From positions 186,001-250,000 of the forward strand of contig NZ_WNXX01000001.1 of NCBI RefSeq assembly GCF_009733795.1: a stretch of 64,000 nt of DNA, written 5' to 3'. Origin of the DNA: Actinotalea caeni. GTDB lineage: Bacteria; Actinomycetota; Actinomycetes; Actinomycetales; Beutenbergiaceae. Below the pieces are notes generated by a model. It saw only the letters and a list, made by a program, of their open reading frames with translations, ran no database searches and was not told the DNA's origin. The first letter of the stretch is position 1. Every line of letters begins with the position of its first letter. The position numbers and the translations under genes were made by a program. Shown in pieces: positions 185 through 11,960 of the stretch.

Positions 185-2500
185 ATGCACACGGACACAG
201 GCGGACGACGGCGGGTGACCGCGGTCGTCGCGGGGGTGGCGATGGCCGCAGCCGGACTGGCGTCGACGTTGCCGGCCGCCGCCGACCCGTCGGCGACCGA
301 CCAGGTGATCTTCGAGGAGGACTTCTCCGCGGGTGAGCTGCCGGACGGCTTCGACGCCGTGCTCGGCGACTGGCAGGTCCTCGACGGCCGGCTGGTCTCG
401 ACCAGCGGCGAGGAGGCCGCACGGCTCGGGTTCGGTCCGCAGGCGCCGGAGAACTTCCGGCTCGAGGTGACCGCGGAGTTCGTCGAGGTCGAGAACGCCG
501 CGCGCTGGCTCAGCCTCGGGGTCGACTACCACGCCGATGAGCACTGGGGGGCGTGGGTGGGGCTGCGGAGCGAGACGACCGCCGCGAACGGTGTCGAGTT
601 CGTGCAGCGGCCGCGATCCGGCTCCAACGCGCTGAGCGCCTACCCCGGCCCGCTGGACATGGGGGTCGGTGAGCCGCACCGGCTCGTCGTCGAGGTGCGT
701 GGCACCTCGCTCACGCTCACGATCGACGACCAGCTCGCGCTCAGCACCGACGAGCTCACCCGGACCGACGGCGGCTTCGGGTTCCGCTACAGCCGCGCGA
801 CGGTCGCGTTCGACGACATCCGGATCACCGAGCTGGCGCCCGGGGCCACCGCGCCCAGCGCGCCGCAGAACGTGCACCTCCAGGAGTCCGGCGACACGGC
901 CACGATCACATGGGACGCCCCGGCCGATCCTGGCCTGGACCACGCCGGCGAGGTCGCGACGATCACCGGTTACGAGGTCGCGGCCGCACCCGTGGGCACG
1001 CCCGCGGACCAGCTGGCCTGGGCACCGGCGGCCGACGACGGCGCACACACCTTCACCGGGCTGCCCGGCGACGCCGAGCAGCTCCTCCACGTGCGAGCGA
1101 CGAACAGTGCCGGGCTGACCGGTCGGGCGGCATCGGTGATCACGCTGCGTGGCGCCGAGACGGTGGCGGGGCTCAAGCTCCGGCTCGAGAACGGGCCGTG
1201 GCCGACCTCGCACGTGCAGGGCATCGCCGTCGACACCGAGAAGGGTTTCGTCTACTACTCGTTCACCACGCTGCTGGTGAAGACCGACCTCGCCGGCAAC
1301 ATCGTCGGCACGGTCGGTGGGTTCACCGGGCACCTGGGAGACCTCGACCTCAACACCGAGGACGGTCGCGTCTACGGGTCGCTGGAGTACAAGGACGCCG
1401 AGGCCTTCTACATCGCGATCTTCGACGTCGACGAGATCGACGAGGTCGGCATGGACGCGCAGAACTCCGACGTCGTCTCGACCGTCTACCTCGAAGAGGT
1501 CGTCGAGGACTACACAGCGGACATGGACGGCGACGGCGTCTTCGACGGCAACACCGGCGACACCGCCGACCACCGCTACGGCTGCAGCGGGATCGACGGC
1601 GTGGCCTTCGGCCCGGCGTTCGGCGGGGTCGACGGTCCGCAGTACCTCACGGTCGCCTACGGGATCTACAGCAACACCGAGCGCACGGACAACGACCACC
1701 AGGTGCTGCTGCAGTACGACATCAGCGACTGGCCGGCCCTCGAGCGGCCGCTCACCGAGGAGGACCCGCACCACGTCGGTCCCGACGAGGTCGACGGCAA
1801 GTACTTCGTCTTCACGGGCAACACGACCTACGGGGTGCAGAACCTTGAGTTCGACCCATGGCTCGACCGGTGGTTCATGGGTGTCTACGTCGGCAAGAAG
1901 GCGCAGTTCCCGAACTTCCAGCTGTTCGCCGTCGACGCCGAGACCGCACCGGTGCAGCAGCCGCTCGTCGGTCTCGACGGCGAGGAGGGCCTGCTCATCG
2001 AGCTGGCCGAGGACGGTCTGGTCGACGAGACCACCGGGATCCGCGGCTGGTGGCGCGACGCCTCGGTCGGCATCCAGTCGCTCGGAGACGGGCTCTACTA
2101 CCTGAGCACGCAGACGAGCGCCGGTGGCCAGGGCGCGGTTCTCACCCTGGAGACCTGGACGGGTCGCACGAGCGAGCCGTTCGTGCCCGTCACCGGTGAC
2201 TTCCAGCCGGTGCCGCGGTGGAGCGCCGACGCGACGTACACCGCCGGGGACATGGTGATGGCCGACCGCACCTGGTGGCTGGCGACGTGGTGGACGCGCG
2301 ACCAGGAGCCGGGCGACCCGTACGGGCCGTGGCAGGAGATCCGCACCACCGACGACGGCGCCGCCGTGTGGACGCCGTCGCGGATCTTCGAGGCCGGCGA
2401 CGTCGTCGAGCACGACGGCGTCCGGTACGAGGCCCGCTGGTGGACCCGCAACCAGGAGCCCGGCACGGACGCCCACGGACCGTGGGAGGAGCTGGGCTGA
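185..2500 (+). CDS. Secreted multidomain protein: LamG-like, FnIII, propeller-like core, two chitin-binding (CBM5/12) repeats
   Basis: This 771-residue protein starts at the ATG at 185, five bases after an AGGAGG at 174-179; an upstream in-frame GTG at 164 precedes that site. A Sec signal peptide (GRRR, then an Ala/Val-rich core to about residue 33) is followed by a LamG-like jelly roll (about 40-215) and an FnIII domain (about 220-320). A long core (about 325-690) is rich in aromatic and acidic residues, with a DMDGDGVFDG calcium-loop-like motif. Two C-terminal repeats follow, each with an AGD plus WW(T)R(N/D)QEPG pattern, typical of chitin-binding type 3 modules. No catalytic family is recognised. 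The protein probably binds or senses polysaccharide outside the cell. The phosphatase and dehydrogenase genes follow after a terminator, so co-transcription is limited. Confidence 0.85.
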   Translation: MHTDTGGRRRVTAVVAGVAMAAAGLASTLPAAADPSATDQVIFEEDFSAGELPDGFDAVLGDWQVLDGRLVSTSGEEAARLGFGPQAPENFRLEVTAEFVEVENAARWLSLGVDYHADEHWGAWVGLRSETTAANGVEFVQRPRSGSNALSAYPGPLDMGVGEPHRLVVEVRGTSLTLTIDDQLALSTDELTRTDGGFGFRYSRATVAFDDIRITELAPGATAPSAPQNVHLQESGDTATITWDAPADPGLDHAGEVATITGYEVAAAPVGTPADQLAWAPAADDGAHTFTGLPGDAEQLLHVRATNSAGLTGRAASVITLRGAETVAGLKLRLENGPWPTSHVQGIAVDTEKGFVYYSFTTLLVKTDLAGNIVGTVGGFTGHLGDLDLNTEDGRVYGSLEYKDAEAFYIAIFDVDEIDEVGMDAQNSDVVSTVYLEEVVEDYTADMDGDGVFDGNTGDTADHRYGCSGIDGVAFGPAFGGVDGPQYLTVAYGIYSNTERTDNDHQVLLQYDISDWPALERPLTEEDPHHVGPDEVDGKYFVFTGNTTYGVQNLEFDPWLDRWFMGVYVGKKAQFPNFQLFAVDAETAPVQQPLVGLDGEEGLLIELAEDGLVDETTGIRGWWRDASVGIQSLGDGLYYLSTQTSAGGQGAVLTLETWTGRTSEPFVPVTGDFQPVPRWSADATYTAGDMVMADRTWWLATWWTRDQEPGDPYGPWQEIRTTDDGAAVWTPSRIFEAGDVVEHDGVRYEARWWTRNQEPGTDAHGPWEELG

Positions 2501-2544: not shown

Positions 2545-2567
2545 CTGCCCCGCAGGAGATGAACCGC

Positions 2568-3413
2568 ATGACCACGACCCCGCCGCCGCCCGAGCGGCTC
2601 TACGACGCGTACCTGTTCGACCTCGACGGGACGATCTACCTCGGCGAGGAGCTGCTGCCCGGCGCCCGCGAGGTGCTGACGGAGCTGCGGGAGCGCGACA
2701 TCCCGGTGCGCTTCCTGTCCAACAACCCGACGAAGAGCGCGCACGAGTACTCGGACAAGCTCACCCGGCTCGGGATCCCCACGCCGGTCACGGAGATCAC
2801 CAGCACGGTGGGCGCCACCACGCGCTGGCTGCTCACCCACCACCCGGGCGCCACCGTGTTCCCCATCGCGGAGCAGCCCCTGATCGACGCGTTCGCGGCG
2901 GCGGGCATCGCGACGAGCGAGGACCCCGAGCGGATCGACGTCGTCGTGGCCTCCTACGACCGTGGGTTCGACTACCGCAAGCTCCAGATCGCCTTCGACG
3001 CGATCTGGTACCACCGCAGGGCCGTGCTGGTGGCCACCAACCCGGACCGGTACTGCCCCTACCCCGGCGGCCGCGGCGAGCCCGACTGCGCGGCGGTCGT
3101 CGCCGCGATCGAGGCCAGCACCGGTGTGCGGTGCAGCCAGGTGATCGGCAAGCCGGACCCGGCGATCGCCGCGCTGGCGCTCGACGGTCTCGACGTCGAC
3201 CCCGCGCGGTGCGCCATGGTGGGCGACCGGCTCGCCACCGACGTCGCGCTCGGTCGTCGTGCCGGGATGGTGTCGGTCCTCGTGCTCACGGGCGACTCCG
3301 ACGCCGACGACGTCCGCGCGGCGGCGCCCGAGCAGCGCCCCACCCATGTGGTCGACGGACTCGGCCAGCTGATCCCATCCGGGGTCGGCCACGACCGCAT
3401 CGGGGCGCTGTGA
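2568..3413 (+). CDS. HAD-IIA sugar/glycerol phosphatase (AraL/NagD-like)
   Basis: The product is a cytosolic phosphohydrolase of the haloacid dehalogenase superfamily, subclass IIA. All four HAD motifs are visible: DLDGT near residue 18 (nucleophile and acid/base Asp), SNNPT (motif II), the Lys of GKPDP (motif III), and GDR..TD (motif IV). The C2 cap lies between motifs II and III. The 281-residue length fits NagD/AraL proteins. The ATG at 2568 sits nine bases after AGGAG, so it is preferred over the ATG at 2559, which abuts the ribosome-binding site. The stop overlaps the GTG of the araM-like gene by four bases, so translation is coupled. The same araL-araM order occurs in the Bacillus subtilis arabinose operon. 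The substrate is not evident from sequence. Confidence 0.9.
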   Translation: MTTTPPPPERLYDAYLFDLDGTIYLGEELLPGAREVLTELRERDIPVRFLSNNPTKSAHEYSDKLTRLGIPTPVTEITSTVGATTRWLLTHHPGATVFPIAEQPLIDAFAAAGIATSEDPERIDVVVASYDRGFDYRKLQIAFDAIWYHRRAVLVATNPDRYCPYPGGRGEPDCAAVVAAIEASTGVRCSQVIGKPDPAIAALALDGLDVDPARCAMVGDRLATDVALGRRAGMVSVLVLTGDSDADDVRAAAPEQRPTHVVDGLGQLIPSGVGHDRIGAL

Positions 3414-4798
3414 CCCCCGACCCCGTGACGACAGACCGCCCCGCGAGCCGTATCGAGCGTGCGCTGCGCACCGCCGACGAGACCAGGGTCATCGAGTTGG
3501 GCAGCGGTGCCATCCGACGCACCGGTCGCGTGTTCGCCGACCTCTTCGACAGCAGCCCCGCCCTGGTGGTCGCCGACGAGAACACCTTCGCCCGCGCAGG
3601 CGAGGCGGTGCTCGCGTCGTTGCGTGAGGCGGGCGTCCCGCTGGCCGCCGACCCGCTGGTGCTCCCGGGCCGGCCCACCCTGTACGGCGACTACACCAAC
3701 GTCACGATCGTGCGGGAACGACTCGCGGCGCTGCCCGGCGCCGTGGCGTGCTCGATCGCGGCCGGCACCCTCAACGACATCACGAAGCTGGCCTCGGGCG
3801 AGCTCGGCCGGCCCTACCTGAACGTGTGCACGGCTCCCTCGGTCGACGGCTACAGCGCCTTCGGCGCCGCGATCGCGATCGACGGCTTCAAGATCACCCG
3901 GTCCTGCCCGGCCCCCGAGGGTCTGGTCGCCGACCTCGACCTGCTGCGGACCGCGCCGCAGCGACTGACGGCGACCGGGTTCGGCGACCTGTCCGAGAAG
4001 ATCCCGGCGGGCGCGGACTGGATCCTGGCCGACGAGCTCGGGGTCGAGCCGATCGACCCGGTGGCGTGGTCGCTGGTGCAGGACTCCGCACGCGAGGTAC
4101 TGCTGCGACCGGAGGCGGTCGCCGCCGCCGACCCGGACGCGATCGAGGCTCTCTCGGAGGCGCTGCTGCTGTCCGGGCTCGCGATGCAGGCGACGAAGTC
4201 CTCGCGGCCTGCCTCGGGCGCGGGGCACCAGTTCTCCCACCTGTGGGAGATGGAGGGGCACGGGCTCGATCTCGAGCCGCCGCTGTCCCACGGGTTCAAG
4301 GTCGGCATCGGGTCGATCGCGTCCTGCGCCCTCTGGGAGGTGGCCCTGGCTCTCGACGTCGCGGCGATCGACGCCGACGAGGTGGTCTCGCGCGCTCCTG
4401 CGCCTGCCGAGCTCGAGCGCAGGGTCCGGCGGGCCGTCTCCCCCGCGTTCGCGGACGAGGCCGTCGTGGCCTCGGAGCGCAAGCAGCTGCGCGGGACGGC
4501 GTTGCGGGAGCGTCTCGAGAGGATCCGCCGGGCCTGGCCGACGATCGTCGCCCGGGCCCGCGAGCAGCTGGTCGGACCGGCGCGGATGATGGAGCTGCTG
4601 CGCGCCGCCGGCACCCCGCACCACCCGGTGCTGATCGGGATCGACATGGAGCGGTTCCGCGCCTCCCACCACGCCGCGCGCATGATCCGCACGCGCTACA
4701 CGATCCTCGACGTGCTCGCCGACCTCGGGGCGCTGGACGACGCGATCGACCGCCTGTTCGCACCCGACGGCTTCTGGGGACGGCACCCGGAGCCGTAG
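3410..4798 (+). CDS. araM: sn-Glycerol-1-phosphate dehydrogenase family (AraM/EgsA-like)
   Basis: The family reduces dihydroxyacetone phosphate to sn-glycerol-1-phosphate with NAD(P)H, using Ni or Zn. The 462-residue protein shows the family nucleotide-binding signature around AAGTLNDITKL, the PSVDGYSAFG segment, and the metal-ligand region with HLWEMEGHGLD and LSHGFKVG. The start is a GTG overlapping the TGA of the araL-like gene; another GTG five codons later is possible. Pairing with a HAD-IIA phosphatase suggests that a glycerol- or sugar-phosphate is made or removed by the two enzymes together. In Bacillus, G1P feeds ether-type lipids through PcrB, but no PcrB homologue is in this window. 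Confidence 0.88.
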   Translation: MTPDPVTTDRPASRIERALRTADETRVIELGSGAIRRTGRVFADLFDSSPALVVADENTFARAGEAVLASLREAGVPLAADPLVLPGRPTLYGDYTNVTIVRERLAALPGAVACSIAAGTLNDITKLASGELGRPYLNVCTAPSVDGYSAFGAAIAIDGFKITRSCPAPEGLVADLDLLRTAPQRLTATGFGDLSEKIPAGADWILADELGVEPIDPVAWSLVQDSAREVLLRPEAVAAADPDAIEALSEALLLSGLAMQATKSSRPASGAGHQFSHLWEMEGHGLDLEPPLSHGFKVGIGSIASCALWEVALALDVAAIDADEVVSRAPAPAELERRVRRAVSPAFADEAVVASERKQLRGTALRERLERIRRAWPTIVARAREQLVGPARMMELLRAAGTPHHPVLIGIDMERFRASHHAARMIRTRYTILDVLADLGALDDAIDRLFAPDGFWGRHPEP

Positions 4799-4835: not shown

Positions 4836-5630
4836 TCAGTCCTTGATCGCGCCGGCCGTCAGCCCGCGCTCGAAGTGGCGCTGGAACGCCACGTAGGTGA
4901 CCACGATGGGTAGGCACATCAGCGTCAGCGCGGCGAAGATCTTCGGTACGTCGGAGCCGTAGGTGCTCGTGAAGTAGGTCGGGATCTGCGTGACGGCCTG
5001 CATGCCCGGATCGGTGAGGAACAGCAGCGGGAGGAAGAACTCGTTCCACGCGTTCAGGAAGGACCAGACGATCACGACCGCCACGATCGCCCTCGACAAG
5101 GGCACGACCACGCGGACGAGCGTCGTGAAGCTCGTGGCGCCGTCGATCTTGGCGGCGTCGAGGAGCTCGTCGGGCACGTTGCGCATGTAGTTCCGGGTCA
5201 GCAGCACCGTCATCGGGAGGATGATCGCCGACAGCGGCCCGATGACGGCGACGTAGTTGTTGAACAGGCCCAGCTCGCGGATGATGAGGAACATGGGCAC
5301 CGTCAGCGCGATGCCTGGCAGCATGAGCCCCGCCACGACGGCCATGAACAGCAGCTGCTTGCCCGGCATCTCGAGCTTCGACAGGGCGAAGCCCGCGAGC
5401 AGGGTGCACAGCGTGACGGTCACCACCGTGCCGGCCGAGATGATCAGGCTGTTGGTGATGAACTGCAGGAACGGCGTCTGTGTGAAGACCGCTGCGTAGT
5501 TGGCGCGCGCACCCTGCCCCTGGAAGCTGACGAGCACGACCCAGAGCAGCGGGAAGGCGAACGGGAGCACGAGGACGGTCGCGAGGACCTGGTAGAGGAT
5601 GCGTGCGCGGATGGTTGCTCGCCCGAACAT
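4836..5630 (-). CDS. Carbohydrate ABC transporter permease (AraQ/MalG-like)
   Basis: This 264-residue membrane subunit of a binding-protein-dependent sugar importer has about six transmembrane helices. It carries the EAA-type cytoplasmic loop (DAAKIDGATSF followed by a VVPLSR ending) that docks to the ATPase. The ATG at 5630 overlaps the stop of the upstream permease by one base (TGATG), with GGGAGAG six bases before it. It is the last gene of the operon, converging on the araM-like gene. The operon encodes no ATPase, so a shared MsiK/MsmX-type ATPase elsewhere probably energises it. Confidence 0.93.
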   Translation of the reverse strand: MFGRATIRARILYQVLATVLVLPFAFPLLWVVLVSFQGQGARANYAAVFTQTPFLQFITNSLIISAGTVVTVTLCTLLAGFALSKLEMPGKQLLFMAVVAGLMLPGIALTVPMFLIIRELGLFNNYVAVIGPLSAIILPMTVLLTRNYMRNVPDELLDAAKIDGATSFTTLVRVVVPLSRAIVAVVIVWSFLNAWNEFFLPLLFLTDPGMQAVTQIPTYFTSTYGSDVPKIFAALTLMCLPIVVTYVAFQRHFERGLTAGAIKD

Positions 5631-6550
5631 CAGCTCTCCCGATCGAGTCGGTACAGGCGCATCTGGACCGCGGTGAGGAGCAGCGCCAGCGCGAGCACGA
5701 TCATCGAGAGCGCTGCGCCGTAGCCGACGTTGAACTGCATGATCGCCTCCTTGTAGATGTACGTCGTGAGGAACTCGGTGCTCCGCGCCGGACCGCCACC
5801 GGTGATCAGGAAGACGATGTCGAAGGTCTTCAGCGACCCGATGACCCCGGTGAGTGCGAGCGTCACGTGCGTCATGCGCAGCTGCGGGACGACGATGCTG
5901 CGCACGGTGCGGACCGTTCCGGCGCCGTCGATCTGAGCGGCCTCCAGCTGCGAGGCCTCCACCTGCGAGAGCGCGGCCTGGTACAGCAGGAAGCTGAACC
6001 CCGTCCACGAGAAGACGTTGACCGCCATCAGAGCCAGCAGCGCCACCTGGGGGTCTGCGACCCACGCGCGCTGGAGCGCGTCGAGCCCGACAGCGTCCAG
6101 CAGCGCGTTGAGCTGCCCGTCCGGGCGGAAGAACTGGCGGAACGCAGCCGAGATCGCAGCCGGCGCGAGCACGACCGGGACGAAGACCACCGCACGGTAG
6201 ACGCCGCGGCCGTACACCGGGCCGCTGAGCACCAGTGCGATGAGCAGCCCGAGCCCCATCTGGACAAGGATCGTGACGACCCCGAACAGTGCGACGTTCC
6301 TCAGGGCCGTCCAGAAGATCGGGTCGGCAAGGAGCCGAGCGTAGTTGCCGCCTCCTACCTGCGTCGGCTCGGGATCCAGGCCGTTCCAGTCGAGCGTGGA
6401 GACCCAGCTGTTGTAGACGACGCCGACGTAGATGATGCCGACGATGAGCATCAGGGCGGGGATGACGTAGAGATAGGCCGTCAGGCGAGCGCGTCGGCTG
6501 CGGAGCCTGGACCTGCCTGCCGCGGCCGTCGTGGCTGTCGTGGCGGTCAT
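5630..6550 (-). CDS. Carbohydrate ABC transporter permease (AraP/MalF-like)
   Basis: This is the 306-residue partner permease of the AraQ-like protein. It begins with a basic cytosolic tail and has about six helices, with an EAA loop (EAAQIDGAGTV...VPQLR) near residue 200. I chose the ATG at 6550 because the only longer start, a GTG at 6589, lies inside a strong hairpin between this gene and the solute-binding protein gene. Together the two permeases form the channel for the sugar delivered by the lipoprotein encoded just upstream. Confidence 0.92.
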   Translation of the reverse strand: MTATTATTAAAGRSRLRSRRARLTAYLYVIPALMLIVGIIYVGVVYNSWVSTLDWNGLDPEPTQVGGGNYARLLADPIFWTALRNVALFGVVTILVQMGLGLLIALVLSGPVYGRGVYRAVVFVPVVLAPAAISAAFRQFFRPDGQLNALLDAVGLDALQRAWVADPQVALLALMAVNVFSWTGFSFLLYQAALSQVEASQLEAAQIDGAGTVRTVRSIVVPQLRMTHVTLALTGVIGSLKTFDIVFLITGGGPARSTEFLTTYIYKEAIMQFNVGYGAALSMIVLALALLLTAVQMRLYRLDRES

Positions 6551-6564
6551 GGTTGTCCAATCCC

Positions 6565-6605: not shown

Positions 6606-7937
6606 TCACTGGAGGGATGCGTCGATGGCCGCCTGCACGGCGGCGGCAGCGTCCTCGGGCGACTGCTGGCCCGAGGCGACCGCCGCCAGCGCGTCGCCGA
6701 GAGCCGTCCGCACGTCGGCGCTGTCGATCTCGCGCTGCCCGACCAGGTTCTCGAGCGCGGGGGCCTGCGCCTCCAGTGCCTCCTCCTGCTCCGGTGTCAT
6801 CACGTCGGACAGGTCCAGCGGCACGCTCACCAGTGCCGGCTGCTGGACGGTCGTCGCCATCAGCTCCTGGCCCTCCTGGCTCGCGGTCAGCCAGAGGACG
6901 AGCTCTGCGGCCTCGTCCTTGTGGTTGCTCGACGAGGCGACGGCGAACCCCACGTCCGGGCCGCCGAACATCAGACCGGTCTGACCGCCGGGGACCACCT
7001 GCGGGAAGAAGTACGGCATGAACACCGTGCTGGTGTCGAAGGCGTCGCCGTAGGTCTCGGCATACGCCTCCATCGAGGTGGTTGTCGTGTCCGCGTTCTG
7101 CCACGAGCCGAAGGCGATCAGTACCGCCTCGCCTCTCCGGAACGCGTCGTTCGCGTCCGGGTACGCAGTGAGCCCCAGAGCGCCCTCGTCGACGATCCCC
7201 TCGGTGAAGAACGACTGCCACACCTCGAACGCCTGCACGAACGCCGGCGCGTCGAACGGGGTCTCGCCGGCGAGAGCCGCGTAGAGCTCGCCGGGAGCGA
7301 TCTGGTTGACGATCGCCTGGTAGACGTCGATGTTGTGCCAGGCGTCCTTGCCGCCGTGCGCCATGCACGTCAGACCCTCCGCACGGACGGCAGCGCAGAA
7401 CTGGGTCAGCTCCGCGAACGTCGTCGGCACGGTCAGCCCGAGCTCGTCCACGAGGGTCTGGTTTGCCCAGACCAGGCCTCCCCCGGTCACCATCCAGGGC
7501 AGTGCGACCTGCTTTTCGTCAGCGCGCAGCTGCGCAGATGACGGCAGCTGGTCAGGCCAGTCCGCGCCGAGAGCCTCCTCGGCGTAGAGCGTGAGGTCCT
7601 CCGCGAGCGGCGCGAACTGCGTCGTCAGCGCCCCGACCTGGAGCCCGAAGACGTCCGGCCCCGAGCCCGACTGCAGCGCCAGCTGCGTGGTGTTCACGTA
7701 GTCGGAGTACTGGATGAAGCGGTGCTCGACCGTGATGCCCTCGTGCTGCGCCTCGAAGGCGTCGATGTACGTCGCAGCGTTGTCCGCGCTCGGGTTCCAC
7801 GACCAGAACGTGAGGGTGACGGGACCGTCGCCGCTGTCGGCCTGGTCGCCGTCACCTCCGCATGCTGCGAGAGTGACGGCCGCTGCGGCGGCCAGGGAGA
7901 GCAAGGCCGCAGCTCTGCGGCGTGCGTGGTCATTCAT
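6606..7937 (-). CDS. Sugar-binding lipoprotein of ABC importer (AraN-like, SBP family 1)
   Basis: This extracellular solute-binding protein has a lipoprotein signal ending in LAACGG, so it is anchored to the outer face of the membrane. The mature part shows family features such as TFWSWNPSADN near the start of domain 1 and FWKVW-like helices. The ATG at 7937 is preceded by AAGGAGT at a good distance; the frame stays open upstream but lacks a better start. The length of 443 residues is normal for oligosaccharide or monosaccharide binders. The ligand is unknown, and synteny with araL-araM hints at a pentose or a derivative. A hairpin follows the gene. Confidence 0.93.
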   Translation of the reverse strand: MNDHARRRAAALLSLAAAAAVTLAACGGDGDQADSGDGPVTLTFWSWNPSADNAATYIDAFEAQHEGITVEHRFIQYSDYVNTTQLALQSGSGPDVFGLQVGALTTQFAPLAEDLTLYAEEALGADWPDQLPSSAQLRADEKQVALPWMVTGGGLVWANQTLVDELGLTVPTTFAELTQFCAAVRAEGLTCMAHGGKDAWHNIDVYQAIVNQIAPGELYAALAGETPFDAPAFVQAFEVWQSFFTEGIVDEGALGLTAYPDANDAFRRGEAVLIAFGSWQNADTTTTSMEAYAETYGDAFDTSTVFMPYFFPQVVPGGQTGLMFGGPDVGFAVASSSNHKDEAAELVLWLTASQEGQELMATTVQQPALVSVPLDLSDVMTPEQEEALEAQAPALENLVGQREIDSADVRTALGDALAAVASGQQSPEDAAAAVQAAIDASLQ

Positions 7938-7981: not shown

Positions 7982-9961
7982 TCAGCGCCGGCTGGAGGCC
8001 CACGGGAAGCCGGTGCGGGAGACGTCGTGCTGGTAATGGTGGAGCCGCCCAGGGCCGGACACGGCCAGGTGCAGCTCGGGAGCGGGGTGCGTGCCGTCGT
8101 GCGCCATCTTCACGAGGAGCTCGTTCCAGCCCTCGACGAGCGTGACGGCGGCACCGATGCCGTCGGCAGCCTTCTGGTTGGGGCGGATCCGACGGAACTG
8201 GTCGTTGCGCCCGGTCTCGACCCCGTTCAGCCAGTACCGGATCGGCATGCTGGGGTCGACGACCAGGAAGACGTCACGTGCTGTGGGCGAGTGCAGGAAG
8301 GCCTGGAGGTAGACGACGCCCCGGCCGCCGTCGAACGCGGACCCGATGTCCTGGCCGTGGCCGTCGGAGTAGATCTCGCGCCAGGCACCCGGCCGGGCGT
8401 CGGGAGTCCGACCGTCCCCGCGCTCCGGCTCCAGCTCGATGTCGAGCCACGCGCGCGCATCGCTCCCGTCCACCGCGTACACAGCGGTGAGCCGTGCGGC
8501 ATGGGCGCCGACCAGGACGACGGGAACCGCGGGCGGAGCTGGGTAGCCGTCAGGCCGGAGCTCGAGAAGCAGCCGGTTCGACGGGAGCACCTGCGCCGTG
8601 TCGAGCACGGGCAGCTCCCAGACGAGCTCGACCTCGCGCCCCGGCTGCAGCGTGACCTGCTGGTCGGGCAGCGCAGCCCAGTCGCGAGGCACGTGGAGGG
8701 AGGCCGTCACCCTCATCGGGTCGCGTCTCCGGCTGCGCAGGGTGGCGCGCAACGTCCGCGAGCGTCCAGGCCTGACCACCGGGCTGTCTCCGTAGTCCAC
8801 GGTGACGTCGATGTCGTCGCCGCGGAAGGGCACGTGCATCGGGTCGTGCGCGTGGAGAGCGCGGATGCCGTCGTCGGCGTAGAGGTCTGCGACCGTGCCC
8901 GTCACGCGCATGTCGTCGCCGAGCGCGCCGTAGTGACGCAGGACCGACGGGCTGACCCGTCGGATCCGAGCGACGAGGTCTCCCAGGTCGGTGGGGACCG
9001 GGTTCTGGCCGTCGGTCATGTGGCGCACCCCGCCCCAGCCCTCGTTGGTGGCGATCCCGTTGCCGAGCGGAGCCACCCAACGCTCGGGAAGCCGGTCGGA
9101 GCCGTGGAGGATGCCCAGGTAGCTCCCGATGGCCGCACCGGAGGAGTCGGTGTCGTAGCCGCAGTTCACGGTGATGCACAGCCCGGTCCCGAAGTCCTCG
9201 CCGTAGAGCAGGCCGATCACCTGGAAAGCCGTGTTGATCGGGGCGTACTGCGCGTTGTAGTGCGGTGTCGCGGCGAGCACGGCCTTGCGCGCCTCCTGCC
9301 ACGTGAGGCCGCGTGCGTGGGCGTCGAGAGCCGTCGCGACCGCGACGCGGACCTTGCTCGTCGGGGACACGTACGACAGCGCGATGTCGATGAGCGGCAG
9401 CGGGTCCTGCACGACGAACGCCGCGGACTCCAGCGCTGCGTTGAAGAGCTCGCCGTCGACCCCCTCTCCCCCCGCGTGGTCGCAGATGGCGTCCTGGTAG
9501 GCGAGCCGTGCCGCGACACGCGGAGCCCCGGGCGCCACGCACGCCCAGATCTCCGACCGGATCGGAGACCCCATGCAGTCGATGAACCAGTTGCTGTGGT
9601 GGCCGCTGACCGGGGGCTCCAGACCGAGCCGCAGGTTGAGCTTCGACAGCCCGTACTCGTCGAAGTTGTAGCCGATGTGGTCGAGCCAGTAGCGGGACAG
9701 GTCACGCGCGGTCAGACCCGGGCCGATCTCTTCGAGCGCCTTGAGCCAGACGAGCTGCATCTCGAAGTCGTCGTTGGGCAGCCCGCCCTCCTGCAGCTCG
9801 GGATACCACCAGACGTCGAAGGGCTCCTCCTGTCCCCAGGCCGTCTCCAGCGGCGTCCCGAGCGTGCCTCCGGCGTTCTTGCCCTTCCAGCAGCCCAGTA
9901 CCCGGTCGAGGTAGTCGTGGCTGTCGAGGTCGAGCGAGTAGGCCTGGTCGGTCGTGGTCAT
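7982..9961 (-). CDS. ADP-ribosylglycohydrolase-family enzyme with C-terminal jelly roll
   Basis: The N-terminal part (about 1-330) matches the ARH fold. It has an acidic pair in PNDDFEMQL, equivalent to the TDDT metal site, and GYDTDSSGAAIG, the usual second Mg-binding motif. From about 370 there is an Ig-like segment. From about 540 a jelly-roll module carries a WLNG plus VEGWNELLVKM pattern, like accessory domains of large glycosidases. At 659 residues it is about twice the length of simple ARH proteins. It is the second gene of a LacI-controlled sugar importer operon, which argues for cleavage of an imported N- or O-riboside or glycoside rather than protein de-ADP-ribosylation. No signal peptide is present, so it acts in the cytosol. 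Confidence 0.82.
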   Translation of the reverse strand: MTTTDQAYSLDLDSHDYLDRVLGCWKGKNAGGTLGTPLETAWGQEEPFDVWWYPELQEGGLPNDDFEMQLVWLKALEEIGPGLTARDLSRYWLDHIGYNFDEYGLSKLNLRLGLEPPVSGHHSNWFIDCMGSPIRSEIWACVAPGAPRVAARLAYQDAICDHAGGEGVDGELFNAALESAAFVVQDPLPLIDIALSYVSPTSKVRVAVATALDAHARGLTWQEARKAVLAATPHYNAQYAPINTAFQVIGLLYGEDFGTGLCITVNCGYDTDSSGAAIGSYLGILHGSDRLPERWVAPLGNGIATNEGWGGVRHMTDGQNPVPTDLGDLVARIRRVSPSVLRHYGALGDDMRVTGTVADLYADDGIRALHAHDPMHVPFRGDDIDVTVDYGDSPVVRPGRSRTLRATLRSRRRDPMRVTASLHVPRDWAALPDQQVTLQPGREVELVWELPVLDTAQVLPSNRLLLELRPDGYPAPPAVPVVLVGAHAARLTAVYAVDGSDARAWLDIELEPERGDGRTPDARPGAWREIYSDGHGQDIGSAFDGGRGVVYLQAFLHSPTARDVFLVVDPSMPIRYWLNGVETGRNDQFRRIRPNQKAADGIGAAVTLVEGWNELLVKMAHDGTHPAPELHLAVSGPGRLHHYQHDVSRTGFPWASSRR

Positions 9962-9996: not shown

Positions 9997-10995
9997 TCAG
10001 GCGGGTGACGCGCAGGACGCGCGCACGACCAGCTGGCTCTCGAGGCGAACCTCTGTCGGTTCGTCGGCTGCGGTACCGGCGAGCCGCTCGAAGAGCAGCC
10101 GGACGGCCTCGGCGCCGAGCTGGGCGATCGGCTGCTTCACCGTCGTCAGGGGGGGAGCCGAGTGCGCGGCGAGGTCGACGTCGTCGTAACCGATCACGGA
10201 GAGCTCGTCGGGCACACGCACGCCCTGCTGATGCGCCGCCTGGAGGACCCCGAGCGCGGTCGCGTCGTTGACGGCGAAGATCGCCGTGGGCCGGTCCCGT
10301 CGCGCGAGCAGCTCCGTCGTGGCGGTGAAGCCGAACTCCCTGGTGAGCGGGCCGTCCTCGACCAGCGACGTCTGCACCTCGACGCCGGACTCCCCGAGGG
10401 CGTCGCGGTAGCCGCGGTAACGGCCGCTGGCCATCGTCGGGCTGCCGAGGAACGCGATGTCGCGATGTCCGAGCCGCAGCAGGTAGTCGACCGCCGTCCT
10501 GGCACCCGTGTAGGTGTCGACGGTCACGAGGTCGATCACCATCGGGTCGGTACGCAGGCCGATGCTGACGACCGGGACGTGCTGAAGAGTGGCCCGGATC
10601 GCCCGCTCGAGGTCCGGGCTCTCGGGCGGTGTGACGATGATCCCGTCGACGTGGTGGCCACGGAGAAGCTCGATGGCCTCGACGGCGACCTCGGCATCGC
10701 CCATGGAGTCCGACAGCACGACGCCGTAGCCGCGCGCCCGCGCGTGCTCGCCGATCGCGGCGGCGACCTCGGCAGTGAAAGGGTTGCGGAGGTCGGAGAG
10801 GACGAAGCCGATCAGGCCCGTCTTCTTCGTCTTCAGGCTCGCGGCCGCCCGGTTGTGGACGTATCCCAGCTCGGCCACCGCCGCTGCGATGCGCCGCCTG
10901 CTCTCGGCACCGACGTAGCCGTTGCCGGTGAGATAGCGCGAGACGGTGCCGATCGACACCTGCGCCCGCGCTGCGACGTCCTTGGCGGTGACCAC
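9997..10995 (-). CDS. LacI-family repressor of the sugar operon
   Basis: This 332-residue regulator has an N-terminal helix-turn-helix (AKDVAARAQVSIGTVSRYL), a hinge helix (AAASLKTKK) and a periplasmic-binding-protein-like sugar domain. Translation starts at a GTG preceded by GGGAGAG. It is the first gene of the operon and lies 20 bp downstream of two LacI-type operators, so it should repress itself and the downstream enzyme and transporter genes until a sugar ligand binds. Confidence 0.93.
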   Translation of the reverse strand: MVTAKDVAARAQVSIGTVSRYLTGNGYVGAESRRRIAAAVAELGYVHNRAAASLKTKKTGLIGFVLSDLRNPFTAEVAAAIGEHARARGYGVVLSDSMGDAEVAVEAIELLRGHHVDGIIVTPPESPDLERAIRATLQHVPVVSIGLRTDPMVIDLVTVDTYTGARTAVDYLLRLGHRDIAFLGSPTMASGRYRGYRDALGESGVEVQTSLVEDGPLTREFGFTATTELLARRDRPTAIFAVNDATALGVLQAAHQQGVRVPDELSVIGYDDVDLAAHSAPPLTTVKQPIAQLGAEAVRLLFERLAGTAADEPTEVRLESQLVVRASCASPA

Positions 10996-11014: not shown

Positions 11015-11028
11015 TGTTACCGGTTACA
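11015..11028. promoter_or_regulatory. LacI-type operator 1
   Basis: TGTTACCGGTTACA is a near-palindrome centred on CG, with the form seen for LacI-family sites in actinobacteria. It lies about 20 bp before the lacI start, downstream of the predicted transcription start, and is 12/14 identical to the second site. Confidence 0.75.
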
Positions 11029-11030
11029 TA

Positions 11031-11044
11031 TGGAACCGGTTACA
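11031..11044. promoter_or_regulatory. LacI-type operator 2
   Basis: TGGAACCGGTTACA is the second copy, centred 16 bp from the first. It touches the -10 element and covers the expected transcription start of the operon. Confidence 0.75.
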
Positions 11045-11187: not shown

Positions 11188-11658
11188 TCAGAGCGGGCCG
11201 AGCACCTCCGCGACGTCGGCGTCGAGGTCGAGCGTGGCGAGCACGTCGAGCAGCTGTCGCTCCTCGTAGCGGAAGTGGCTCGCCATGACGGCGCCGACGC
11301 CGTCGAGGTGCTGCAGCAGCTCGTCCGGGCCGGCGGCGCGCGCCACCGCCGCCTGCAGCTCGGTGAGGAGGTGCGCGATCATCGAGTGGTCCTGCCGCAG
11401 GTACGCCAGGGTCTCCCGGAGCTCGGGGTGCGCGGCGGCCAGCGCCGGGAACAGCGTGCGGTCCTCCCCCTCGTGGTGCCCGGCGAGCGCGGCGCAGAAG
11501 CCGTGGCAGAACAGCAGCAGATCGGCGCCGACGGCCCGTGTCGCGTCGCCCGCCACCGCCTGCTCCCGCGTTACCTCCAGGGCCTCTCGCAGCCGCTCGT
11601 GGACGGCGCGGAGCTCATCGGCCCAGGCCCGCACCCGGATCGTCTCGGCGTCGGTCAC
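11188..11658 (-). CDS. Hemerythrin HHE-domain protein
   Basis: This 156-residue four-helix protein carries the histidine/glutamate pattern of HHE hemerythrins: HGFCAALAGHHEGED, then QDHSMI, then MASHFRYEE. Such proteins bind a di-iron centre and sense or handle oxygen or nitrosative stress. The GTG start overlaps the stop of the ABM-domain gene by four bases (GTGA), so the two are translationally coupled, and both are divergent from a MarR regulator that probably controls them. Confidence 0.88.
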   Translation of the reverse strand: MTDAETIRVRAWADELRAVHERLREALEVTREQAVAGDATRAVGADLLLFCHGFCAALAGHHEGEDRTLFPALAAAHPELRETLAYLRQDHSMIAHLLTELQAAVARAAGPDELLQHLDGVGAVMASHFRYEERQLLDVLATLDLDADVAEVLGPL

Positions 11659-11960
11659 CCGGCGGGCTCCCGGACCTCCGCGATCTCGCCCTTCTCGTCG
11701 ACGACGACCTCCTCGATGAGGTCGAGGAACGCCTGCACGCCCGGGGTGTCGCCGCCGCGGGCACGAGAGGCCGCGAGGTCGGCGCTGCTGCGCCACTCCA
11801 CGAGGTCGAGCCAGTCGTCCGCGCCCATCCGGACCAGCCGTGCCCCGAGGAACCCGGGCCGGTGCGCGCGGAACTCCTCCACCATCGCAGCGCGTGCCGC
11901 CAGCAACGCCTCGGTGCGCTCGGCGGCCACGCGGAACCTCACGAGCTCGAGCGTCGCCAC
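11655..11960 (-). CDS. Small ABM-like (antibiotic biosynthesis monooxygenase) protein
   Basis: The product is a small alpha/beta protein of about 101 residues with the ferredoxin-like ABM pattern: LVRFRVAAER, then RPGFLGARLVRMGADDWLDLVEW, then a final EEVVVDEKGE strand. I place the start at the GTG at 11960 because a -10-like TATCGT ends six bases before it, which fits a leaderless message. A TTG at 11996 would lie inside the -35 element. A role as a monooxygenase or degradative enzyme is possible, but the substrate is unknown. Confidence 0.75.
   Translation of the reverse strand: MATLELVRFRVAAERTEALLAARAAMVEEFRAHRPGFLGARLVRMGADDWLDLVEWRSSADLAASRARGGDTPGVQAFLDLIEEVVVDEKGEIAEVREPAG

Follow-up and report, generated by a model that had tools for sequence, protein, structure and literature searches.

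An ARH-fold gene within a sugar-import operon

The window is a stretch of 64,000 nucleotides from Actinotalea caeni. An open reading frame on its minus strand occupies exactly the place assigned to it by the first-pass annotation, and encodes a protein of 659 amino acids with the fold of ADP-ribosylglycohydrolases (ARH). A chance reading frame is ruled out by full-length matches at about 40-75% identity in many phyla. The gene belongs to an operon, which reads on the minus strand in the order lacI, ARH, solute-binding lipoprotein (SBP), permease, permease:

11015-11044, minus strand: LacI-type operator in twin form immediately upstream of lacI (two near-copies of AACCGGTT, 16 bases apart)
9997-10995, minus strand: LacI-family regulator, which opens the operon (both PF00356 and PF13377 over cut-off)
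7982-9961, minus strand: gene of the ARH-fold protein (ATG start), sole enzyme of the operon
6606-7937, minus strand: extracellular solute-binding lipoprotein (SBP_bac_8/SBP_bac_1 over cut-off; lipobox-like LAAC read from the sequence)
5630-6553, minus strand: ABC permease 1, sugar type (BPD_transp_1)
4836-5627, minus strand: ABC permease 2, sugar type (NCBIfam GlcU, UgpE and MalG relatives, all below cut-off)

A gap of 35 bases separates the end of lacI from the ARH start, and 44 bases lie between the ARH stop and the ATG of the SBP gene, which bears out the earlier placement of the gene between a LacI repressor and a sugar-binding protein. Both permease domains exceed the BPD_transp_1 cut-off in the search of the own genome (C11:190860-191378 and C11:191657-192256). 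Within the operon we recognise no enzyme besides ARH and see no ATPase subunit; in sugar importers of Actinobacteria the ATPase can be shared and encoded elsewhere. LacI-controlled sugar ABC importer operons are known in Actinobacteria, and the present one resembles them in its LacI, SBP lipoprotein and two permeases. However, the hydrolase here has the ARH fold and does not come from a known glycoside hydrolase family. Permease domains number 136 in the own genome of 4.0 Mb, so that adjacency at one locus is unremarkable; we thus dropped it as evidence and used conserved gene order instead.

With up to three mismatches allowed, the 30-base twin operator is a single site in the own genome (4.0 Mb), and the same form is found upstream of lacI in three relatives (L148, L031 and L032). 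Hence, judging from the sequence, the regulator appears to be local, with the ARH gene in its single target. Scans for promoters and terminators found nothing. A third operator-like half site at window 963-972 on the plus strand, with one mismatch and no adjoining partner, is probably a chance occurrence.

Other genes lie on both sides of the operon. On the plus strand, window 2559-4798, convergent with the ARH operon, holds a HAD-type phosphatase gene and after it a glycerol-1-phosphate dehydrogenase-like gene, whose 141.7 bits fall short of the NCBIfam cut-off. The gene at 38-2497, also on the plus strand, encodes a protein that carries at its C-terminus a carbohydrate-binding module of family 5/12 (E 3e-11) and in which no catalytic domain is recognised. 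A small protein gene is located upstream of the operon at 11188-11796 on the minus strand; by eye, we take its product to be hemerythrin-like.

Domain architecture and predicted structure

The protein matches Pfam ADP_ribosyl_GH (PF03747) at residues 23-294 with E 1e-34 and 121 bits against a curated cut-off of 26.2. The AlphaFold2 model, built with an input of 39 full-length proteins and replacing a poor six-sequence model (pLDDT 61), has a mean pLDDT of 93 and pTM of 0.93. It divides the protein into three parts:

8933-9919, minus strand: ARH catalytic domain, residues 15-343, helical in the model and aligned to ARH3 by VIA-align
8504-8818, minus strand: Ig-like domain, residues 382-486 (NEW3/NPCBM_assoc-like), model strands at 384-486
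8042-8503, minus strand: C-terminal beta-sandwich, about residues 487-640, predicted strands, pLDDT about 80-97

In VIA-align, the rows of which span residues 9-348 and 382-486 and leave the last domain outside, residues 11-341 superpose on ARH3 (6g1p_B) with Z 30.5 and rmsd 2.8 A over 295 aligned residues at 14% identity. By the fold of the model the protein is thus a member of the ARH superfamily, and it is not DraG of a nitrogen-fixing system. It shares with DraG the Pfam family and an alignable C-terminal metal motif; however, it fails the equivalog model TIGR02662 with 21.1 vs 337 bits, which rules this candidate out. The best sequence matches among solved structures are the ARH-related Thermus 2cwc and MJ1187 1t5j, which, unlike the window protein, are single-domain proteins of about 300 aa.

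The two C-terminal domains were initially described as an Ig-like and a jelly-roll domain of the kind found on large glycosidases. The Ig-like part stands in the model, though its Pfam match (NEW3/NPCBM_assoc, PF10633, residues 397-452) scores 20.3 bits, under the cut-off of 24.4, and recurs in just 4 of 39 relatives (E 0.01). The beta-sandwich is confidently predicted as well, whereas its likeness to a glycosidase-type jelly-roll is weak. Because neither a solved structure (up to E 10) nor a Pfam family matches its sequence, the likeness comes from the predicted strands and from Foldseek hits to structures of sialidase and GH115, which are weak (TM-scores of 0.13-0.18 by query). The Micromonospora viridifaciens sialidase and GH115 glucuronidases carry Ig-like and beta-sandwich accessory domains. 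These hits concern the accessory domains only, the catalytic domains being unrelated, and we treat them as a lead.

Distribution of the full-length and short forms

The window protein is the sole ADP_ribosyl_GH match of its own genome. At the family level, 14 of 24 genomes have a match (E 1e-15), and the full-length ones besides the own are those of G406 (75%) and G394 (51%). Across the class a match occurs in 64/394 genomes (E 1e-20), and among the matches listed only those of the own genome and G154 are nearly full length. A contig scan of genomes gave 185 relatives. The 80 that were kept come from Actinomycetota, Chloroflexi, Bacillota, Bathyarchaeota, Hydrogenedentes, Armatimonadetes, Planctomycetota, Chthoniobacteraceae, Bacteroidia and others. 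We aligned 39 full-length forms, including the window protein and that of G154 (set A2), and separately 44 shorter forms (set A3). In the tree, where one misframed row was ignored, the window protein falls within a set of 39 rows, all of the A2 type. In the same family, genomes often contain adjacent pairs of ARH genes that belong to further types (G405:C14, G406:C1, G408:C1, G410:C1, G411:C43, G412:C1, G413:C2 and others).

No signal peptide is recognised in the window protein by hydropathy. The same measure flags signal peptides in 1/39 A2 and 7/44 A3 proteins; at the Bacteroidia loci all four N-termini look like signal peptides by eye and hydropathy, and the other four that were flagged are probably overlong starts. 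N-termini of this kind in Bacteroidia make these proteins ill-suited to the role of a cytosolic protein-ADP-ribose eraser.

Active site

The site of ARH3 consists of E41, T76, D77, D78, D314, D316 and T317 and that of ARH1 of E25, S54, D55, D56, D302, D304 and S305, as given in PMC9738213. The flap role of the ARH3 glutamate E41 is described in PMC7050489 and PMC9738213, and the metal-ligand bond lengths of ARH3 in PMC8141533. Profile alignment with classical ARHs yields E39, N63, D64, D65, D270, D272 and S273 as the counterparts in the window protein:

9845-9847, minus strand: E39, Glu-flap position (ARH3 E41), from the profile alignment, 39/39 in A2
9767-9775, minus strand: N63-D64-D65, metal-site motif aligning with TDD of classical ARHs, N at ARH3 T76/ARH1 S54
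9143-9154, minus strand: D270-T271-D272-S273, second metal-site motif (ARH3 D314, D316, T317)

The four metal aspartates and the flap glutamate are hence equivalent in position to those of ARH3 and ARH1, and the ARH metal motifs and fold claimed from the sequence agree with the superposition on ARH3 and the acidic ligands that are kept. The alignment columns of E39, N63, D64, D65, D270 and D272 are invariant in all 39 A2 proteins, and position 273 is Ser in 8 of them and Cys in 31. The differences from ARH3 and ARH1 lie in the low identity, the two C-terminal beta-domains, the sugar-import operon and the neutral ligand. The Ser or Thr that precedes the aspartate pair in ARH1 and ARH3 is absent, and Asn takes its place throughout A2 and A3 (NDDL in 44/44 A3 proteins), whereas TDDT or TDDS stands here in 12 of the 15 other ARHs. 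A pattern scan of the A2-type rows found NDD in 40/41 and TDDV in 1/41, the odd row being one of two added rows or a false hit. In sequence terms, a retained acidic centre with a changed neutral ligand is what would be expected of an active enzyme whose substrate differs.

The changed ligand could, nevertheless, lower the metal affinity or the activity. An ARH-derived protein that binds sugar or regulates, with weak catalysis or none, would account for this Asn, for the Cys that 31 of 39 proteins have at another of the ligand positions and for the two beta-domains, which could bind sugar. We judge it decidedly improbable, as five acidic positions invariant in bacteria and archaea alike are unusual after a loss of catalysis, and the operon would be left with no other enzyme.

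The same residues bear on a second alternative, in which the protein is an ADP-ribosylhydrolase also in function, stripping ADP-ribose from a protein or small molecule and, for example, tuning the importer or regulator, so that its place in the operon would reflect regulation. The fold and the metal acids are those of ARH enzymes, and the reviewed ARH enzymes act on ADP-ribose, according to the accessible parts of PMC7050489 and PMC9738213. Set against this are the DraG equivalog score, the Asn found in every A2 and A3 protein, the extra domains, the importer operon, the exported forms and the glycosidase genes near relatives described below, and we consider this alternative improbable.

The importer link in relatives

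The absence of the transporter from relatives had been named as a finding that would speak against an ARH that cleaves an imported compound. We find the link kept at 50% identity and above, and absent from most loci below it, where other carbohydrate genes often stand instead. Among eight relatives at 50-75% identity, which are not independent of one another, seven carry the complete importer cassette and the remaining one has a single permease. An SBP and two permeases lie beside or around ARH in L148 (75%), L031 (65%), L032 (63%), L033 (55%), L034 (51-54%), L149 (51%) and L035 (50%); the eighth, L111 (55%), has one permease beside ARH and GFO/IDH/MocA and Zn-dehydrogenase genes nearby. The neighbouring genes come from a simple gene caller, and their boundaries are approximate.

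Gene order in L148 is the same as in the window operon. L031 and L032 read LacI-ARH-ARH2-SBP-P1-P2 (P1 and P2 being the permeases), with no enzyme other than ARH; the second, shorter ARH gene between ARH and SBP is missing from the window and L148. The order SBP-P1-P2-ARH is found in L035 and L149, and a Bacillota locus at 40% identity (L055) reads LacI-SBP-P1-P2-ARH. Below 50% identity no adjoining importer is recognised in L036, L037, L038, L061, L081 and most others.

Such cassettes are also found next to two other types of ARH (in L113, L115 and L151, and in L154 next to its longer ARH), and no cassette directly adjoins ARH in L112, L150, L152 and L153. In a sister genus, another type of ARH, with a long extension at its C-terminus, is located beside an SBP and two permeases (L154:7336-10341, L129 and L132).

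Glycan-degrading genes near relatives

Genes of glycan degradation accompany a part of the relatives. L033 and L034 share the order GH78-PL8-ARH-SBP-GH5-like-P1-P2, and GH78 is also near ARH in L039, L041, L042 (with GH106), L047 and L061. L091 reads ARH, WbsX-like, apiosidase-like (PF13204), WbsX, GH78, and L100 reads ARH, DUF6259, GH106, GH106. Altogether, a GH78 or GH106 gene is present in the flanking DNA of 12/80 loci, in L035 weakly and far off. At many loci of relatives no carbohydrate gene is recognised, and the commonest Pfam match among the neighbours of the A2-type loci L039-L065 and L077 is URO-D-like (8/87).

GH78 stands beside 9 of 66 loci against 0.78 expected from genome-wide counts (Poisson P 1.4e-7), the P values being too small because related loci are not independent. 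The full-length type has it at 7/33 loci against 0.28 expected, and the excess is weak for the short type (2/33 against 0.49, P 0.09). For 16 of the genomes, chosen after their neighbours had been seen, GH78 was counted with a hand cut at E 1e-20, and genome sizes were rounded; 50 genomes were added later. The comparison omits 14 of the 80 loci (4 full-length and 10 short), and the flanking DNA of the four full-length ones shows no rhamnosidase.

These neighbours also bear on the riboside part of the initial interpretation, according to which an imported riboside or nucleoside-like compound is cleaved with the ribose recognition of ARH retained. In the calcium form of ARH3 one metal touches the 1''-, 2''- and 3''-hydroxyls of ribose, as PMC8141533 describes, and the NCBIfam names for relatives of the LacI regulator include RbsR, CytR and UriR, all below their cut-offs. 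However, the operon has no recognised gene of a ribokinase or of nucleoside use, and the neighbours elsewhere are rhamnosidases and a polysaccharide lyase. The named members of the families to which the SBP and permeases belong transport sugars and oligosaccharides, so that a riboside or nucleoside is a less likely substrate than an oligosaccharide. We regard a riboside substrate as quite improbable.

Proposed function

Hence, we suggest that the window protein is a cytoplasmic binuclear-metal glycosidase of the ARH fold, acting on an imported oligosaccharide or glycoside that would often come from rhamnose-rich glycans. We hold this reading, in which activity and substrate are inferred, to be probable, with appreciable room for doubt. 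It is weakened by the fold itself, which is that of ADP-ribosylhydrolases, so the substrate may be ADP-ribose on a protein or nucleotide. The first-pass proposal of an enzyme for an imported glycoside or riboside is thus supported in its ARH fold and in the transporter link of close relatives, and less so in the riboside.

We propose the following sequence of events. LacI would repress the operon from the one twin operator, from which the substrate or product presumably releases it. The SBP lipoprotein would then capture the glycoside outside the cell, and the two permeases, together with the ATPase encoded elsewhere, would import it.

In the cytoplasm, the ARH enzyme would cut the glycosidic bond of the imported compound. 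D64, D65, D270 and D272 are expected to hold two metals, with N63 and S273 completing their shells and E39 serving as the flap. It is probable that the Ig-like domain and the beta-sandwich contribute to the shape or orientation of the substrate site.

As to the linkage, the 1-, 2- and 3-oxygens of an alpha-ribofuranoside lie on one face, and the same holds for beta-L-rhamnosides and beta-D-mannosides. By analogy, these two, with three oxygens on one face, would suit the ARH metal centre. The GH78, GH106 and apiosidase-like neighbours would be in keeping with an uncommon linkage, for instance that of a beta-L-rhamnoside.

A more speculative role of ARH in place of unsaturated glucuronyl hydrolases, acting after PL8 lyases, would fit some Actinobacteria, because G406 (six PL8 genes), G394, G418 and G419 have strong PL8 genes and no GH88 match over the cut-off. 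As a general rule it is disfavoured, because G420 has both PL8 and GH88 and the own genome has one PL8 and one weak GH88 match over the cut-off.

Implications for the family

The ARH fold and this type of operon are already known; their union with glycan degradation is not described in the open papers that we found, and none of these presents an ARH as a glycan glycosidase. We tentatively extend the proposal to the whole subfamily with the pattern NDD[LF]...DTD[CS][ST], which may represent undescribed bacterial and archaeal metal-dependent glycosidases that reuse ADP-ribosyl chemistry on glycans, although we think it rather unlikely that the extension holds at this breadth.

Bacterial proteins of this kind are named 'ADP-ribosylglycohydrolase' from the fold alone, and the names mislead if the branch cuts glycans. 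If the proposed function is true, carbohydrate enzymology would gain a route to glycoside cleavage through a binuclear metal centre. In the operons where ARH is the sole enzyme, each SBP points to its own candidate substrate, which makes this reading directly testable.
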